Positions 15,549 to 58,991 of a DNA stretch of 64,000 bases are shown piece by piece (position 1 is the stretch's first letter; every line of letters begins with the position of its first letter). The notes under the pieces were generated by a model. The model searched no databases, was not told where the DNA came from, and was given only the letters and a program-made list of their open reading frames with translations. The position numbers and the translations under genes are program-made. The stretch comes from Flammeovirga sp. SJP92. GTDB taxonomy: Bacteria > Bacteroidota > Bacteroidia > Cytophagales > Flammeovirgaceae. The stretch spans positions 62,001 through 126,000 of the forward strand of contig NZ_LQAQ01000019.1 of the NCBI RefSeq assembly GCF_001583495.1. Direction: 5' to 3'.

Positions 15549-15942
15549 GTACCACCTGTAGAAGCGTAGCCTGCTACGCAAAAACGATGAAGGTATTTCA
15601 AATAAGTACAAATTCAAAATTATATAATTCTATTTGTTGTTTTGCGATTACTTCCTTCAAAAAACTTTTAATTGAACCACCAATATTACGTTTTTTAGCG
15701 TTGTACTCACAAAAAATAAATTAGAATTAACTATGATTTATTTTTGATTTAGTACTTAATGAAATTTAATTATAACGAAAAACGCAATCTTTGATTTTTT
15801 AAGGAAGATACCTTTGATTACTACTTTTTGAACAAACACGCAGCAAAGCTACGTGGCTACAGGTGGATACCAACTAGTGAATTGTTATTGACTATAATCT
15901 TCTCTTATTGGGTGAGTTGTGTAGCAGGACTACGCTTCTACG
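15549..15942. repeat. Inverted-repeat spacer with three copies of a GTAG-CTAC hairpin motif
   Basis: Copy 1 (15549-15579) holds CACCTGTAGAAGCGTAG followed by CCTGCTACGC, itself a hairpin (GCGTAG-CCTG-CTACGC). Copy 2 (15837-15871) is its diverged inverse (ending GCTACAGGTGG), so copies 1 and 2 bracket a ~260-base AT-rich core. Copy 3 (15921-15942) is another inverse copy (GTAGCAGGACTACGCTTCTAC). No reading frame of note lies inside. It could be a degraded MITE or palindromic intergenic repeat family. Confidence 0.6.
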
Positions 15943-49385: not shown

Positions 49386-49740
49386 TTATTGTTGGATATC
49401 TCTAAAGTCATTAATGGCTTGTGCTGTCTAAGTTTTTATTTCATTATAATCGATATTGTTTCTATCATCTTTTACCATCAAATTGGAACTAATTCCTACG
49501 AAATATACTCCTGCATTGAATCATGAAGCAAGATTTCCCTTCTCTATCTCTTCCCTTCCTGGTGACATAATACTCGATCACAGACATGGTTTACCAAACC
49601 TGATTCTCTAACTTGTGCTACAGGAAATACTTTGACTAATTCCACTTTCAACTCTTCAGCTTGTCCTATTTCTGAGACTGGATCACACCCCAGACTTACA
49701 GCTACTTTTCTTCCATTACAAATCTTTATTAGCTCCTCAT
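49386..49740 (-). pseudogene. eda: KDPG aldolase (eda) remnant, C-terminal half
   Basis: Reading the minus strand from the end of uxaC gives CNGRKVAVSLGCDP, VSEIGQAEELKVELVKVFP and VAQV. After a frameshift near 49546-49575 it gives SPGREEIEKGNLAS-stop-F, NAGVYFVGISSNLMVK, DDRNNIDYNEIKT-stop, TAQAINDFRDIQQ. This order matches the second half of bifunctional 4-hydroxy-2-oxoglutarate/KDPG aldolases (VSEIGxAxELGxExVKxFP, then ENLxxWFxAGVxxVGxGSNL). Stops lie at 49521-49523 (TGA in place of a Trp codon) and 49428-49430 (TAG). The N-terminal half is gone. Eda would cleave KDPG to pyruvate and glyceraldehyde 3-phosphate, the last step of this pathway. Confidence 0.85.
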
Positions 49741-51161
49741 GTACTAGTACTAAGCTCTAAATCAGAGAATGCATATTCTTTGATATTGTTATAGCAAATA
49801 TCTTGTACTAATCCACCTACCCATTTCATATCATTTGGAATCAGTCCTTTTTCAATATCATTTCCTAATAAGTTACACAGTGTTCTTCTGAAATATTCGT
49901 GTCTTGGAAAAGATAAAAAGCTTCTGGAATCGGTGAGCATCCCCACAAATCGGCTTAATAGACCAATATTGGACAGGGTGTTGATTTGCCATTCCATGGC
50001 TTCTTTTTGATCTAAGAACCACCAACCTGAACCCAATTGAATTTTACCTGGAGTGATGCCGTCCTGGAAGTTTCCAACCAACGTACCCATGGGATAATTA
50101 TCCGCGGGATTGAGATTGTAAATGATAGTTTTAGGCAATTGACCTTTCAAGTCCATATCACTTAAAATCTTTGAAAGTGGAATAACATGGTTGACATCTG
50201 AAATAGAATCAAAACCGGTGTCTGGACCTAAGTTTTTAAACTGTCTTTCAGAATTATTTCTTAAAGCACCAACGTGTAACTGCATCGCCCAACCTAAATG
50301 GTGGTACTCTTTCCCCATCTCAATCAAAAGGTGCTTCTTATAAGCATTTTGTTCTGCTTTAGTCAATATTTCACCTTTTAACGCTCTTTTAAAAATACCT
50401 TCTACTTCTTCAATTTCAGCATCTCCTACAGGTACTTCTGATAGACTATGATCTGACATTTTACATCCCACAGTATCGAAATAAGCCATTCTTTCTTTCA
50501 GCACTTCCAATAAAATCTCATAGGAAGTAATTTCTTTATTGGCCACTTCTGCCAGGAGACTTACATAGTTTAAAAAATCTTGTCCTTTGTCGATCCCCAA
50601 TATATTATCAGGTCTCCAAGTCGGGCAAACCATCGTTGCCTTATTCTCTCTATTATTTTTTTGATGATCTTCTAATGTGTCTGTTGGATCATCTGTAGTC
50701 CCTACTAGCTTTACATTTTTTTGAGCTAACAAATTTCTACAACTGTTTTCTTCAAGCTGTAATAGTTGTGATGTTTGCTCATAAATCTCTTCTGCTGAAG
50801 AAGGAGATAATAAAGTATTGATATTGAAATAAGTCGATAACTCTAAATGTGTCCAGTGAAATAATGGATTTCTTAAAGTATGAGGGACCGTCGCCGCCCA
50901 TTTCAAAAACTTTTCTTTTTCTGACTTATTTCCTGTAATGTAATCTTCGCTGACACCATTCGCCCTCATCGCTCTCCACTTGTAGTGATCTCCTTCCAGC
51001 CATGCTTGCGTGATATTCTGATATTGTCTATCATCCGCAATATCTTTTGTAGAGAGATGATTATGGTAGTCTATGATAGGCATATCCTTCGCATAATCGT
51101 GGAAAAGTTGTTTAGCGTATTGATTATCGAGAATAAAATCCTCGTGTATAAATGGTTTCAT
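49737..51161 (-). CDS. uxaC: Glucuronate/galacturonate isomerase
   Basis: 474 residues, full length. Converts D-glucuronate to D-fructuronate and D-galacturonate to D-tagaturonate. Recognisable by PIIDYHNHLSTKDIADD (metal-binding H-x-H), HLELSTYFNI, LVGTTDDPTDTLEDH, KMSDHSLSE, MQLHVGALRNNSERQF, GWWFLDQKEAMEWQINTLSN, and the ending DICYNNIKEYAF. The last residues (SDLELSTST) look like an added tail where the gene runs into the eda remnant. The preceding LacI gene ends 237 bases upstream, so it may have its own promoter. Confidence 0.95.
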   Translation of the reverse strand: MKPFIHEDFILDNQYAKQLFHDYAKDMPIIDYHNHLSTKDIADDRQYQNITQAWLEGDHYKWRAMRANGVSEDYITGNKSEKEKFLKWAATVPHTLRNPLFHWTHLELSTYFNINTLLSPSSAEEIYEQTSQLLQLEENSCRNLLAQKNVKLVGTTDDPTDTLEDHQKNNRENKATMVCPTWRPDNILGIDKGQDFLNYVSLLAEVANKEITSYEILLEVLKERMAYFDTVGCKMSDHSLSEVPVGDAEIEEVEGIFKRALKGEILTKAEQNAYKKHLLIEMGKEYHHLGWAMQLHVGALRNNSERQFKNLGPDTGFDSISDVNHVIPLSKILSDMDLKGQLPKTIIYNLNPADNYPMGTLVGNFQDGITPGKIQLGSGWWFLDQKEAMEWQINTLSNIGLLSRFVGMLTDSRSFLSFPRHEYFRRTLCNLLGNDIEKGLIPNDMKWVGGLVQDICYNNIKEYAFSDLELSTST

Positions 51162-51398: not shown

Positions 51399-52418
51399 TT
51401 AGCTATTCTCCTTTGTCACTAATGATGGAGGCAATAGTGTTTCTATTTTCTTATGTTGTTTACTTTTTAATATTTTGTAGAGATTTTCCAGTACTTCTCT
51501 TCCCTGCCTTACAGAGTCTTGAGTGATTAGAAAATCGATTTTCTCTGATTTCAAAAGTGCTTTATTTTCTTCCAATAAATCATGACCTATAAAAACAGTG
51601 TCTTGATCATCAAAATGCTGTACTTCTTTGATCAGAGCATAGGATTCCGCTACTCTGGAATTTGTAACATAGATTGCCTTTGGTTTTGCCTTACCTTCAA
51701 AAATAGAAGATGCCTTTTCGTCTTTTAGTGGAAGGTCAATAATCACAATATTGGATCTATCCTGTCCTCTTTTTGTAAGGAAGTTCACCACTGCTCTTTC
51801 TCTTTGGAAAGAGATCGGCAAACGTTCATCATGGTAAGGGTTCACCACCCAAATATCCTCTTTTTCTCTGGTAGAAATCTCAATTAATCTTCCTACCAAT
51901 GCACCACATGCTTCGATGTTCTGACCAATAAAATAATCAGGCGCAATCTCCGTAATATTTGAATTGATAAAAGCCAGTTTCATTTCTTCCTGCTCCGCTT
52001 TTCGAATCAACTCAAAAGTGGCCTCTTTATATTTGGGGTGGACAATCATCCCCTCCAGCTTCTCATTCAATAGCAGATGACCCTTTTCTAAATAGTCTGT
52101 TTCACTGTTGTAATCAAAAAGTTGAAGGTGGATGGATAAGCCTGTATCGTTCAAAAGATCAGCAGCTTGTACTATACCTTCCAATGGTTTTTCCCAGTAC
52201 GAATTGGTTTTCGGATCAGGGAGTAAAACACCAATGGCCATTTTCCTATCAAGGGTTTTAGGAACGGCGTAGCCTAACTCGGCGGCGATTTTCATAATAA
52301 CGTCCTTTGTTTTCTGTGCCACTCTTCCTCTGTCATGAAGCGCACGGTCCACGGTACCTACTGAAACACCTGCCTTTTCTGCGATCTCTTGAATTCTTAT
52401 AGACTTTCTTCTATGCAC
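51399..52418 (-). CDS. LacI-family regulator 1
   Basis: 339 residues. [23 protein letters not shown], hinge, then a periplasmic-binding-protein-like effector domain ([20 protein letters not shown]). It begins with GTG at 52418 inside the end of uxuA (22-base overlap); no ATG is available before the HTH, so the GTG is well supported. Translational coupling to uxuA is likely. It probably responds to a uronate pathway intermediate and may bind the ATGATGTA-T-TACATCAT site ahead of this operon (inference). Confidence 0.92.
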
Positions 52419-53620
52419 AATACTTCTTTTTGTTCAGATAAAATTATTCCATGCATCAGTCCTCTCAACTCCGCCAATCCTCTCAGTCTACCAATACCAG
52501 AATAACCTGGATTTGTCTTTTTCACCAAATCATCCAACATTTTATGTCCATGATCAGGGCGCATTGGCATTCTCACTTCTCCTTTCCCTTCGTTTATTCT
52601 TCTGGATTGTTCTTCTAAAAGTGCTTTCATCACACCAAACATATCCACATCTCCTTCTAAGTGATTGGCTTCGTAGAAGTTACCGATATCATCTCTTTTT
52701 GTGCTTCTAAGATGGATAAAATTGATTCTATCAGCAAATTGTTTCACCATTTCCACCAAATCATTATCTGATCTCACACCAAAAGAACCTGTACAGAAAG
52801 TCAAGCCATTATGTAATGATGGCACTTGCTCAAACAACCAAGCCACATCCTCCGCTATACTGACCACTCTTGGCAATCCCAAAATTTGATAAGGAGGGTC
52901 GTCAGGGTGAATGGTTAAGTACACGCCTTGCTCTTCGGCTACTGGAACAATTTCAGCCAAGAAATCCCTTAAATTCTCTCTTAATTTCTGAGCATCAATG
53001 CCGTTATAACTGTCCAATACAGATTGGAATTGTTCTAAAGTATATCCTTCTTCTGCACCTGGAAGACCTGCAATGATGTTTTTCACCAACTCTGCTTTTT
53101 TACCTTCTGACATCTGATCAAAAACAGCTTTTGCTTTCTCTTGATCTTCTGCTGAATACACTTCCTCTGCTCCTGCTCTTTTTAATAAGAATAACTCAAA
53201 AGCGGCAAATTCATACACATCAAAACGCAATGCTTCCGAACCATCTTCTACTTTATAAGACAAATCTGTTCTTGTCCAGTCTAAAACCGGCATAAAGTTG
53301 TAGCAAACCGTATCGATACCACAAGCCGATAAGTTCTTGATCGACTGTTTATAGTTTTCGATATACAATTTGTAATCTCCCGTCTGCTTCTTAATGTCTT
53401 CATGAACAGGTACACTTTCTACCACTGACCAAGTCAACCCCACTGCCTCAATCACTTCCTTTCTCTTTATGATTTCCTCTACTGTCCAAACCTCTCCATT
53501 AGGGATATGATGCAATGCAGAAACAATACCCGTGGCACCTACCTGCTTAATGTCCAATAACGATACAGGATCATTTGGCCCGTACCATCTCCATGTTTGT
53601 TCTAATCCTAAATTTTTCAT
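52397..53620 (-). CDS. uxuA: Mannonate dehydratase
   Basis: 407 residues, TIM-barrel enzyme that dehydrates D-mannonate to 2-keto-3-deoxy-D-gluconate. Signature stretches: [20 protein letters not shown] at the start, [36 protein letters not shown] (metal ligands), [25 protein letters not shown] and [14 protein letters not shown]. Its ATG overlaps the stop of the SDR gene by one base and it overlaps the LacI gene at its end, so SDR-uxuA-lacI form one operon. Confidence 0.96.
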
Positions 53621-54462
53621 TATACTCCACTATATGCGTTATAACCACCATCAATTGGAATGCATATTCCGGTCACGAAAGAAGAAATATCAGAGCATAA
53701 ATAAAGGACTGCTCCTTGAACATCTTCTGGTTCCCCAAACTTTGCCATTGGTGTTCCATTTACAATTTTCTGACCTCTTTCGGTATAAGAACCGTCCTCA
53801 TTGGTCACTAAAAATCTATTCTGATCCGTGATAAAGAAACCCGGTGCTATGGCATTGACTCTGATTTCCTGTGGCGCCAAGTGCATCGCCAACCATTCTG
53901 TGAAATTGTTGATCGACGATTTTGCTGCCGAGTAAGCTGGAATTTTTGTCAAAGGCTTATAAGCGTTCATCGAAGAAATATTCAATACCACACCTTTGTT
54001 TCCTTTCCCAATCATATCTTTAGTAAAGACCATAGAAGGAAGCAACGTACCTTTGAAGTTCAGGTCAAATACAAAATCAAAGCCTTCTAAATCTAGATCG
54101 TAGAATGTTCCCTCTTCATTATCTTCCACCATCTGCTCTACTTGTGTAGTTGCTTTAGGGTGATTTCCTCCAGCACCATTGACTAAAATATCAATACTTC
54201 CCAATTCATTATTAATAATATCTTTTGCGTCCAACAGCGATTGCTTATTCAATACATTGGCCGTCAAACCAATATTAACGTTCCCAAATTCCTCTCTAAT
54301 CTCCGCCGCCATTTTCTCAGCCTTCTCCTGATTAAGATCCACAATTGCCAATTTAGCTCCATGTGTTGCAAATGCTTTACAAATGCTTAATCCTAATACA
54401 CCTGCCCCTCCAGTCACAACCACAACTTTATCTTTTAAGTCAGTAAATGCTAGTTTTGCCAT
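53620..54462 (-). CDS. SDR-family D-mannonate oxidoreductase (UxuB role)
   Basis: 280 residues, Rossmann fold. [18 protein letters not shown] is the NAD(P) glycine motif, [12 protein letters not shown] follows, and [11 protein letters not shown] carries the catalytic Tyr and Lys (Y-x-x-x-K). Its placement directly ahead of uxuA indicates reduction of D-fructuronate to D-mannonate, the step done by the unrelated UxuB in E. coli; many Bacteroidota use an SDR here. The substrate is inferred from context. Confidence 0.87.
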
Positions 54463-54757: not shown

Positions 54758-55768
54758 TTACCTTGACACCAATCCTGCGTCTTTACCTCCCATTATACCT
54801 TCCACCTCACTTACTTTTGTCAAACTTGCATCACCATGAATTGTGTGCTTCAAACAAGACGCGGCGGCAGCAAAATCTATTATTTTCTGTGGATCATCAG
54901 TATAATTTATAAAGCCATAAATCAACCCTGCCATATACGCGTCTCCACCTCCCACTCTATCGATCATAAAAGGCATATCATATGCAGTGGAACGGAATTC
55001 TTCAATGCCATCGAATAAAACACCAGAAATATTGTTATGAGAGGCCGAATAAGACTTTCTCAAACTTGTAGCAACCATTTTCAAGTGAGGAAAATGTTCT
55101 TTGATTCTTCTCGGCGCACTATCGTATCCATCATTCTCCTCAAATTCAACACCCAGCATGATTCTCGCATCTTCTTTCCCTCCTAATACGATATCTGTCA
55201 GTTCAATCAATTGAGGCATAATTTCTTTTGGACCTTTGCCATACTTCCAAAGCTTACTTCTGTAATTCAAATCACATGAGACTGTAAGTCCTTTTTTCTT
55301 TGCTGCTGAAAGTGCCTCAAAACATACTTTTGCAGCCGTTGCTGATACGGCAGGAGAAATACCTGACCAGTGAAGCCACTCTGCTCCTTCAAATACTTTA
55401 ATCCAATCGATTGTATTTTCTTTTAAAGTAGCAAATCCAGAGTATGCCCTATCATATACCACCTGAGAAGTACGATGCATTACACCTATTTCAAGAAAGT
55501 AACTCCCTAGTCTTTCACCGCCTCTCACAATATTTTTTGTATCTACTCCATGTTTTCTCAATTGAGCAATAGCAGTATCACCCAATTGATTTTCGGGAAT
55601 TCTACTTACAAAAGAGACTGACTGATCAAAATGTGCTAATGATACAGCTACATTAGCCTCTGCACCACCATAAGTGGCATTGAAAGTATCAGCTTGTTCA
55701 ATTTTTTGATGATTTGGAGGGGATAACCTCAGCATTATTTCCCCAAAGCATATGATTTTGTTTTTCAT
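54758..55768 (-). CDS. kdgK: 2-keto-3-deoxygluconate kinase
   Basis: 336 residues, PfkB/ribokinase fold. Opening ICFGEIMLRLSPP, then ATYGGAEANVAVSLAHF (substrate loop), CDLNYRSKLWKYG, and RVGGGDAYMAGLIYG with the catalytic Asp and anion hole. It phosphorylates KDG to KDPG. It follows the second LacI gene by 60 bases and ends at its own terminator. Confidence 0.93.
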   Translation of the reverse strand: MKNKIICFGEIMLRLSPPNHQKIEQADTFNATYGGAEANVAVSLAHFDQSVSFVSRIPENQLGDTAIAQLRKHGVDTKNIVRGGERLGSYFLEIGVMHRTSQVVYDRAYSGFATLKENTIDWIKVFEGAEWLHWSGISPAVSATAAKVCFEALSAAKKKGLTVSCDLNYRSKLWKYGKGPKEIMPQLIELTDIVLGGKEDARIMLGVEFEENDGYDSAPRRIKEHFPHLKMVATSLRKSYSASHNNISGVLFDGIEEFRSTAYDMPFMIDRVGGGDAYMAGLIYGFINYTDDPQKIIDFAAAASCLKHTIHGDASLTKVSEVEGIMGGKDAGLVSR

Positions 55769-55828: not shown

Positions 55829-56863
55829 TTATTTTTTTCTTAAGGTAGACTCCCTGATAATCAATTCACTATCCAAAACAGCAGTTTCAGACGCCAATAT
55901 ACTTTTATCGCTTTCTTGAATATGATTGATGATTTTCTTAGCGGCCAATTTTCCAATTTCAGCCGCAGGTTGATGCACTGTCGTAATTGGAGGGCTCACC
56001 AACTTGGCAATAGGTTCATTACTAAATCCAGCGACTAAAACATCCTCTGGGATTTTGAATCCTTTTTCCTGCAATGCTTTTTGTGCTCCAATTGCCGCCA
56101 TATCATTCATGGCAAATACAGCATCAAAATCTACTTTCTTTTCAACCCATTTATTGATGGCCTCATGTGCTTCATCAATGTCAAGTTTGATCTGCTGCAT
56201 AATCAACTTGCTCTCTGTATTTAAACCAGATTCTTTGAAAGCATCATAAATACCTTTTACTCTATTATCATAAATACTCACCTTTGTATCACCTGTGAGC
56301 ACCGCCAATTTTCTAATTCCCTGAGACAACAAGTGTAACGCCAACTCTTTAGAAGTGATACGGTCATCAGTAATGACCTTTGTGGTAGACACTTCTTTGA
56401 TGTATCGATCAAAAAAGAAAATCGGAATGTTACTTTCCATTGCTTTCTGTATATGATCAATAGTGGAGGTTTTGATCGCAGGCGACAACAAAATCCCGTC
56501 TACTCTACTGGAAAGTAATGTATTAATATTTTTCGCTTCCAAATCTTCAGAGTCTTTTGACTGACAGATAATAACATTATAACCCGCTTTGTGAGCCTCC
56601 TCTTCTATACCGCTGATTGCAGTTGAGAAAAAGTATTTCGTAATATGAGGGACAATAATTCCAATCGTATTAGACTTCTGAGTTCTAAGATTTGAGGCCA
56701 AAGTATTCGGTCTATAGTGCATTTCCTTTGCTTTATCCTGCACAATCTTTTTTGTTTTTGCAGATACTCTAGGATTGTTATTCAATGCTCTTGATACTGT
56801 AGAACTATCTATTTGCAATACTCTTGCGATGTCATGTATAGTGACCGATTTCTTATTCTCCAT
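55829..56863 (-). CDS. LacI-family regulator 2
   Basis: 344 residues from the ATG at 56863 (MENKKSVTIHDIARVL). The frame opens 14 codons earlier, but the HTH normally lies within the first residues. HTH: TIHDIARVLQIDSSTVSRAL; hinge YRPNTLASNLR; effector domain NTIGIIVPHITKYFFSTAIS. Two CG-centred palindromes (57051-57074, 57166-57179) in the divergent intergenic region with kduI are typical LacI operators, so autoregulation and control of kduI/kduD/exuT are likely. Confidence 0.93.
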   Translation of the reverse strand: MENKKSVTIHDIARVLQIDSSTVSRALNNNPRVSAKTKKIVQDKAKEMHYRPNTLASNLRTQKSNTIGIIVPHITKYFFSTAISGIEEEAHKAGYNVIICQSKDSEDLEAKNINTLLSSRVDGILLSPAIKTSTIDHIQKAMESNIPIFFFDRYIKEVSTTKVITDDRITSKELALHLLSQGIRKLAVLTGDTKVSIYDNRVKGIYDAFKESGLNTESKLIMQQIKLDIDEAHEAINKWVEKKVDFDAVFAMNDMAAIGAQKALQEKGFKIPEDVLVAGFSNEPIAKLVSPPITTVHQPAAEIGKLAAKKIINHIQESDKSILASETAVLDSELIIRESTLRKK

Positions 56864-57050
56864 AATTACTTGCTCTGTCCTTTTTGATGAAGTGTAAGTA
56901 CACAAAAAGTCTAGCTGTTTGACTTAATCTATTGACTAATGGTGATTTGTCAATCATTGACTTAAACTCCTCACAAAAATACTAATTAATAGAGTTTACA
57001 TAAGGTTTAAGAACAATAAATAACTTCAACAAAGATGAAATTAAATTCCG

Positions 57051-57204: not shown

Positions 57205-58041
57205 ATGAAGTATGAAAGTAGATATTCGGTACATCCTTCGGATGCCAAGAAATATGACACTCAACAATTAAGAGAGCATTTTTTAATTGAAAAGGTATTT
57301 GAAGAAGACAGTATAAAAATGACTTATTCTCATGAAGACAGATATATTGTTGGAGGAGCAAAGCCTGTCAATACAACATTGGAGCTACAACCAATCGATC
57401 CTTTGAAAGCAGACTATTTCTTGGAAAGAAGAGAGCTAGGTATTGTCAATGTGGGAGGCCAAGGAATTGTTATTGTAGACGGAGATGTTTACACTTTAAA
57501 CTTCAAAGAAGCACTTTATGTAGGAAGAGGCGTGAAAGAAGTGTCTTTTAAAAGTGTTGATACTGCACAACCTGCATCATTTTATTTAAACTCTACTCCT
57601 GCTCACAAAGCTTACCCCACAAAGAAAATCACACAGGAAGAAGCGGAAAAAGTAGAACTAGGTACTCCTGAAACTTCAAACCATAGAATCATCAATAAAT
57701 TATTGGTCAATTCTGTAGTAGATACATGTCAATTGCAAATGGGAATGACAGAGTTAAAGTCAGGCAGTGTTTGGAATACAATGCCAGGTCACGTACACGA
57801 TAGAAGAATGGAAGTTTATTTCTACTTCGAAGTACCAAAAGAGCAAGCAGTTTGTCACTTTATGGGACAAAAAGAAGAATCAAGACATATTTGGATGCAT
57901 AATGAGCAGGCGGTTATTTCGCCAGTTTGGTCAATGCATTCAGGAGCAGGAACTAGCAACTATACATTTATTTGGGGAATGGCAGGTGAAAACTTAGACT
58001 ACGACGACATGGATAAGTTTGCCATTACCGAATTAAAATAA
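57205..58041 (+). CDS. kduI: 5-keto-4-deoxyuronate isomerase
   Basis: 278 residues, double cupin. Converts 5-keto-4-deoxyuronate (from pectin, alginate or glycosaminoglycan lyases) to 3-deoxy-D-glycero-2,5-hexodiulosonate. Key stretches: RYIVGGAKPVN, FLERRELGIVNVGG, and the zinc site in TMPGHVHDRRMEVYFYFEV (His, His, Glu) with a further His in VWSMHSGAGTSNYTFIWGMAGEN. First gene of the operon under operator O2. Confidence 0.96.
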   Translation: MKYESRYSVHPSDAKKYDTQQLREHFLIEKVFEEDSIKMTYSHEDRYIVGGAKPVNTTLELQPIDPLKADYFLERRELGIVNVGGQGIVIVDGDVYTLNFKEALYVGRGVKEVSFKSVDTAQPASFYLNSTPAHKAYPTKKITQEEAEKVELGTPETSNHRIINKLLVNSVVDTCQLQMGMTELKSGSVWNTMPGHVHDRRMEVYFYFEVPKEQAVCHFMGQKEESRHIWMHNEQAVISPVWSMHSGAGTSNYTFIWGMAGENLDYDDMDKFAITELK

Positions 58042-58202
58042 TTACCCTAACTACTATTACTCTTTAGTTTAACAGAGAACAAAAAACAGTTAGTCTTTAT
58101 TATTAAGCCACAACAACATTACTAAACTAACAACAAGCTATGATCTTAAAATTATGGTTGTTGTGGCTTCTATTATTCTATCATCTACAAAACAATATTA
58201 TT

Positions 58203-58991
58203 ATGACACAAGCATTTAGTTTAGCAGGTAAAGTTGCCTTGGTAACAGGCGGTACACATGGCCTAGGGATGGCTATTGCAACAGGTTTAGCAAAATCAGG
58301 AGCGAGAATTGTAATCAACGATGTATTTGAAGACAAACTATCATCTGCAGTACAAGAATATTTAGCAAACGACATTGAAGTGGCAGCGTACGCATTTGAT
58401 GTTACTAAAGAAGAACAAGTAAAAGAAGGAATCGCAAAAATTGAAGCTGAAGTTGGAGGGATTGATATTTTGGTGAATAATGCGGGGATCATAAAGCGTA
58501 CTCCGGCATTGGAAATGGAAGTAAGCGACTTCAGACAAGTAATTGATATTGACCTTGTAGGTCCATTTATCATGTCAAAATATGTAGCGAAGGGAATGGT
58601 AGAAAGAGGACAAGGTAAAATTATCAATATGTGTTCAATGATGAGTGAGTTGGGAAGAAACAGTGTCAGTGCTTATGCTTCTGCTAAAGGTGGACTTAAA
58701 ATGTTGACAAGAAACCTTGCCACTGAATGGGCGAAATACAACATTCAAGTTAATGGAATTGGGCCAGGTTATTTTGCCACTTCACAAACAGCCCCAATCC
58801 GTGTAGATGGTCATCCTTTCAATGAATTTATTCTCAACAGAACACCTGCAGGAAAATGGGGTGATCCATCAGATCTAGCAGGTACGGCTGTATTCTTATC
58901 TTCTGCCGCATCCAACTTTGTCAATGGGCAAGTAATATATGTGGATGGAGGTATTTTAGCCACAATCGGTAAACCTCACGGAGAGGAATAA
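58203..58991 (+). CDS. kduD: 2-keto-3-deoxygluconate 5-dehydrogenase (SDR)
   Basis: 262 residues from the ATG at 58203 (MTQAFSLAGKVALVTGG). The longer frame from 58140 adds a spurious hydrophobic lead. NAD motif TGGTHGLGMAI, NNAGIIKRTP, catalytic YASAKGG, and GPGYFATSQT. Following kduI, it reduces the hexodiulosonate product to KDG. The gluconate 5-dehydrogenase reaction is a related alternative; context favours KduD. Confidence 0.9.
   Translation: MTQAFSLAGKVALVTGGTHGLGMAIATGLAKSGARIVINDVFEDKLSSAVQEYLANDIEVAAYAFDVTKEEQVKEGIAKIEAEVGGIDILVNNAGIIKRTPALEMEVSDFRQVIDIDLVGPFIMSKYVAKGMVERGQGKIINMCSMMSELGRNSVSAYASAKGGLKMLTRNLATEWAKYNIQVNGIGPGYFATSQTAPIRVDGHPFNEFILNRTPAGKWGDPSDLAGTAVFLSSAASNFVNGQVIYVDGGILATIGKPHGEE

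Follow-up and report, generated by a model that had tools for sequence, protein, structure and literature searches.

Our analysis indicates that a redundant aldolase gene is decaying in the uronate cluster of this genome, and that the remnant is real and biologically ordinary. It lies directly behind uxaC on the minus strand of the window, by which we mean the whole stretch of 64,000 nucleotides analysed here (C19:62001-126000, 34.9% G+C, from a draft assembly of 8,491,641 bases in 123 contigs). To judge from its sequence, it is very probably a pseudogene of the KDPG/KHG aldolase gene, eda, that follows uxaC in Flammeovirga sp. OC4 and EKP202. An earlier interpretation made from the letters alone (the sequence-only reading) had placed a decayed KDPG aldolase gene at 49386-49740 behind uxaC, and tblastn and a clade profile bear out both the coordinates and the nature of the gene. 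The remnant is not reported in the listed titles and abstract openings on Flammeovirga KDPG aldolase, alginate and glucuronate genomes, and pseudogenes. The remnant and its lesions are as follows.

About 49388 to 49747, minus strand: eda pseudogene, C-terminal remnant of a KDPG/KHG aldolase starting near residue 100 in EKP202 numbering (tblastn, clade profile, alignment to EKP202 and OC4)
49741 to 49754, minus strand: deletion junction, some 14 bp whose origin in uxaC or eda is not clear (alignment, positions)
Between 49591 and 49590, minus strand: 13-bp deletion causing a frameshift (pairwise alignment with EKP202 eda)
49578 to 49580, minus strand: in-register stop 1
49521 to 49523, minus strand: in-register stop 2
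49428 to 49430, minus strand: in-register stop 3

By sequence descent the remnant belongs to the aldolase family. When the intact EKP202 Eda was compared with the minus strand by tblastn, two collinear pieces were found (E 3e-30), the first covering residues 100-154 of the protein (67% identical, 71 bits) and the second residues 157-222 (50% identical, 62 bits). Of 200 dinucleotide shuffles of the remnant stretch, 56 produced at least one piece, and the top score was 23 bits. We also built a clade profile from 14 aldolases of the genus, the remnant excluded, and scanned it against the 2,456 stop-to-stop pieces of at least 15 residues in the whole window; two of these reached E<=1, and both lie in the remnant (E 8e-18 and 4e-7). 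Pfam-A gave no family at E<=1 for either remnant fragment searched separately, which is why the clade profile was needed. The profile search that the sequence-only reading had proposed for this region thus finds the aldolase family with the clade profile and misses it with Pfam-A on the fragments.

What remains falls far short of the complete open barrel of about 200-230 residues. Some 99 of the 234 codons (42%, relative to EKP202) are gone from the front, and the rest carries the 13-bp deletion and three in-register stops. The frameshift and the missing front had been recognised from the sequence, where two stops rather than three had been counted. PMC5334617 gives the key residues for the E. 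coli KDPG aldolase and FlAld, in E. coli numbers, as the catalytic Lys133 together with Glu45, Arg49, Thr73 (Ser), Pro94 and Phe135. Mapped by motif spacing, E46, R50, S78 and P99 of EKP202 Eda fall in the missing part, and what the remnant retains is the K and F of the K-x-F motif around the catalytic lysine (K138 in EKP202). With the front of the barrel and four of the six key residues gone, a working aldolase would not be expected from this stretch.

The comparison with relatives argues for decay in place. In both OC4 and EKP202 an orthologous uxaC is followed on the same strand by an intact eda of 234 codons, with a gap of 295 bp in EKP202, so the uxaC-eda order that the sequence-only reading had suggested comparing is indeed found in relatives. 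These intact genes (NCBIfam NF005499, PRK07114, bifunctional KHG/KDPG aldolase) share place, strand and gene order with the remnant and are 67-69% and 50% identical to it over the two pieces, but they are open throughout. Among solved structures, the intact EKP202 Eda is best matched by PDB 8di1, a complete chain of a KDPG and KHG aldolase (E 2e-72 over 222 residues). By its description in PMC5334617, FlAld of Flavobacterium sp. UMI-01 is a Bacteroidota KDPG aldolase, with activity shown and its gene beside a KDG kinase.

Among the matches listed, the uxaC of the window is closest to those of OC4 (91%), EKP202 (90%) and F. pacifica WPAGA1 (83%). Matches to uxaC occur in 18 of the 38 sampled genomes, this genome counted, and are absent from four of the eight other genomes of the genus (G001, G002, G004 and G006). 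We took 24 uxaC loci, two of them from this genome and some clipped by contig ends; an aldolase match (E<=1e-3, within 1.5-kb flanks on either side of uxaC) is present at 10 of the 22 from other genomes. F. pacifica has uxaC with no aldolase nearby, and hence no intact orthologue at this place. It was considered as a carrier of the same remnant and rejected, the best match there having E 1.1, and we found no second genome with this remnant.

Relative to EKP202, about 0.6 kb is absent by alignment, comprising the uxaC stop, the 295-bp spacer and the front codons of eda. Homology to uxaC ends at about 49755, while homology to eda is clear from 49740 and looser from 49747. Having lost its stop, uxaC is extended by four residues (STST) to a stop at 49739-49737 in the junction or eda DNA. 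The loss of the uxaC stop along with the rest is the pattern expected of one deletion, and a single deletion in place would have taken stop, spacer and eda front together. That a deletion had removed the front of eda was already proposed from the window, and the alignments with OC4 and EKP202 now make it visible; the deletion is known from one assembly of one strain. At the other end of the remnant, eda may originally have stopped at a further TAA, 49388-49386.

A tree of the remnant and 39 aldolases places it with the uxaC-linked genes of OC4 and EKP202, a gene on contig C4 of this genome and a gene of G004 (support 100/98). The remnant sits on a long branch, and the tree does not resolve the order inside this subclade. 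The input was 44 remnant-type aldolases (at least 47% identity to EKP202 Eda), from which we dropped five rows belonging to other families of the order; more distant classical-type rows are also left out, and two loci gave no protein. Between the remnant and EKP202, dN is 0.18 (51 codons) and 0.32 (52 codons) over the two pieces, whereas the same codons of the intact C4 gene give 0.017 and 0.165; dS is 2.0 and 1.6, against 1.47 for uxaC, these being pairwise values with synonymous sites near saturation. This raised amino-acid change beside ordinary synonymous change is compatible with lost constraint. The ratios dN/dS, 0.09 and 0.21 as pairwise counts subject to the same near saturation, are still below 1, and for this reason we suggest that the decay of eda came late, selection having probably acted on the gene during most of the period after the split.

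How would the KDPG of the cluster then be split? The sequence-only reading had called for an aldolase encoded elsewhere, and the genome search returned seven intact aldolase genes over the PF01081 cut-off, with an eighth match far below it. Four exceed the NF005499 cut-off of 275 bits (L004-L007, at 333, 288, 336 and 327 bits), and three exceed the TIGR01182 cut-off of 156 (L001-L003, at 180, 170 and 166). Since all seven are over NCBIfam cut-offs, no metabolic gap is predicted at the KDPG aldolase step, and loss of eda would have been tolerated. A KdgK-like kinase lies near three of the seven, adjacent on C119 and C15 and within 4 kb on C37. Six of the seven have orthologues in both OC4 and EKP202, at 84-99.6% identity. 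One or more of the seven would split the KDPG of the cluster, most plausibly the C4 copy from the remnant's own subclade or those near a KdgK-like kinase.

The C4 aldolase (G000:C4:3640-4314), which is intact, unlike the remnant, and is over the NF005499 cut-off, is the only one of the seven that lacks an ordinary orthologue in OC4 or EKP202; in those genomes it comes closest, at 79%, to the uxaC-linked gene of EKP202. It is 65% and 45% identical to the two remnant pieces, and by blastn the remnant matches it at 77% over 130 bp. A DNA search of the genome with the remnant missed this gene, so that search is not usable as evidence of absence. Positions 1-3323 of C4, where a GH29 fragment, an MFS gene and a DUF6250 gene lie, match G004:C211 at 97% identity. 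The last 107 bases of C4 are identical to the start of reversed C33, on which a LacI and a GH88 gene extend the collinearity, and at the point of the C4 aldolase G004, otherwise collinear over this stretch, has 119 bp and no aldolase. Thus a second uronate-type locus probably holds the C4 gene, between the DUF6250 gene and the LacI regulator and with a MITE copy upstream of it; the join of C4 to C33 is itself inferred because the 107-bp overlap also recurs at other places in the genome. The LacI gene of C33 has no close relative in OC4 or EKP202 (best 53%, at E<=1e-80).

The MITE-like repeat is about 160 bp long, with imperfect inverted ends (AGTAC...) and apparently flanked by TA, and copies lie at 15603-15758 of the window, at L066:4336-4443 and at L069:6654-6758. 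Its first 107 bp have at least 46 matches in the genome, self included (40 of 206 candidates scored), mostly at 94-100% identity, and 4 of 13 aligned copies are partly doubled in appearance. EKP202 carries an 82% copy between kduI and lacI2. Within the deletion junction, 49741-49754, a 9-mer is identical to one MITE end. Such a 9-mer occurs in 0.5% of the window's 20-bp stretches and the match was looked for post hoc; a MITE origin of the junction is retained only in the boldest of the readings below.

Could the broken gene be an artefact, or something other than a gene that decayed where it stood? The assembly is a draft in many contigs and the remnant was found in no other genome, as would be the case if a sequencing or assembly error had broken an eda that is intact in the organism. 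However, a loss of about 0.6 kb, a 13-bp deletion, three stops and divergence over both pieces do not look like base-calling errors, the frames of uxaC and the other neighbours are open, and we give this explanation almost no weight. It is highly improbable, too, that the remnant is an eda fragment brought in from another place and inserted behind uxaC: the sharp edge at the end of uxaC and its unassigned bases might suggest an insertion, but OC4 and EKP202 have the same gene at the same place and on the same strand, and the remnant is nearer to their genes (69% and 67%, and 50%) than to any copy in its own genome, the C4 gene included. Nor do we see more than a very slight chance that the remnant is retained for use, as a short protein or as an RNA at the tail of the uxaC transcript. 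In the first piece 70 codons run open, and both pieces have dN/dS below 1; yet there is no ATG, GTG or TTG close to the start of that open run, dN clearly exceeds the value for the intact C4 gene, and a low dN/dS is expected if selection lasted until recently.

A different question is what made the gene dispensable. The sequence-only reading had offered replacement by another copy, and the C4 gene, being of the lost gene's subclade, fits that description, though it could equally be an older paralogue. It is possible, and we put it forward tentatively, that the C4 aldolase arrived by transfer or duplication and so made the uxaC-linked eda dispensable, given its isolation among the seven with respect to OC4 and EKP202 and its position, downstream of a MITE copy, where G004 has no aldolase. 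Against this, the six other intact aldolases could equally cover the loss, the others may have lost an old paralogue that survives here as the C4 gene, and gain here or loss in G004 both fit, across a join that is inferred. A bolder version, in which the aldolase step itself moved, seems to us quite unlikely: here a MITE-linked change would have placed an eda of the same subclade in the fucosidase/GH88 locus behind LacI, an event at the old site would have left MITE-like bases in the junction, and glucuronate breakdown would now be under the control of the other locus.

The genes ahead of the remnant in the cluster are as follows.

49737 to 51161, minus strand: uxaC, glucuronate isomerase, 474 aa, ending four residues past the EKP202 and OC4 proteins (NF002794 over cut-off, PF02614)
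51399 to 52418, minus strand: LacI-family regulator (PF00356)
52397 to 53620, minus strand: uxuA, mannonate dehydratase (TIGR00695 over cut-off)
53620 to 54462, minus strand: SDR of the D-mannonate oxidoreductase family (NF006132 over cut-off)
54758 to 55768, minus strand: PfkB-family kinase, KdgK-like, named by similarity (Pfam PfkB cut-off only, no NCBIfam cut-off reached)
55829 to 56905, minus strand: second LacI-family regulator (PF00356)
57205 to 58041, plus strand: kduI, 5-dehydro-4-deoxy-D-glucuronate isomerase (NF002091 over cut-off)
58140 to 58991, plus strand: SDR, earlier called kduD (over the gluconate 5-dehydrogenase cut-off NF005488, under KduD TIGR01832)

The preceding steps had been described as intact, and near full-length family matches agree; of the genes called kduD and kdgK, the one passes NF005488 and not TIGR01832, the other the PfkB cut-off alone. 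The KdgK-like kinase scores highest, though below cut-off, against NF041633, a model of a KHG/KDPG aldolase-sugar kinase fusion, matching its kinase part. This kinase has an 89% orthologue in OC4, beside lacI2, kduI, a KduD-like SDR and an MFS gene, while EKP202, where the cluster runs lacI2-SDR-uxuA-lacI1-uxaC-eda, has only paralogues at 44-45%. Thus kinase and aldolase genes are gained and lost in the genomes compared, while uxuA, SDR and uxaC persist. The uxuA gene is unusually close to that of EKP202 (dS 0.29, against 1.47 for uxaC and 1.98 for kduI in the same cluster), which may reflect recombination or strong codon constraint. A second uxaC of the genome, 54% identical (L067, G000:C12:60000-75000), is followed by an MFS gene 71% identical to that of the window.

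More generally, these comparisons point to turnover in the final steps of hexuronate breakdown within a paralogue-rich genus of polysaccharide degraders: EKP202 has kept the uxaC-linked eda and has no close orthologue of the window kinase, whereas this genome has kept the kinase and lost the eda. For annotation this advises caution, since a broken gene in a pathway cluster does not necessarily mean a broken pathway.
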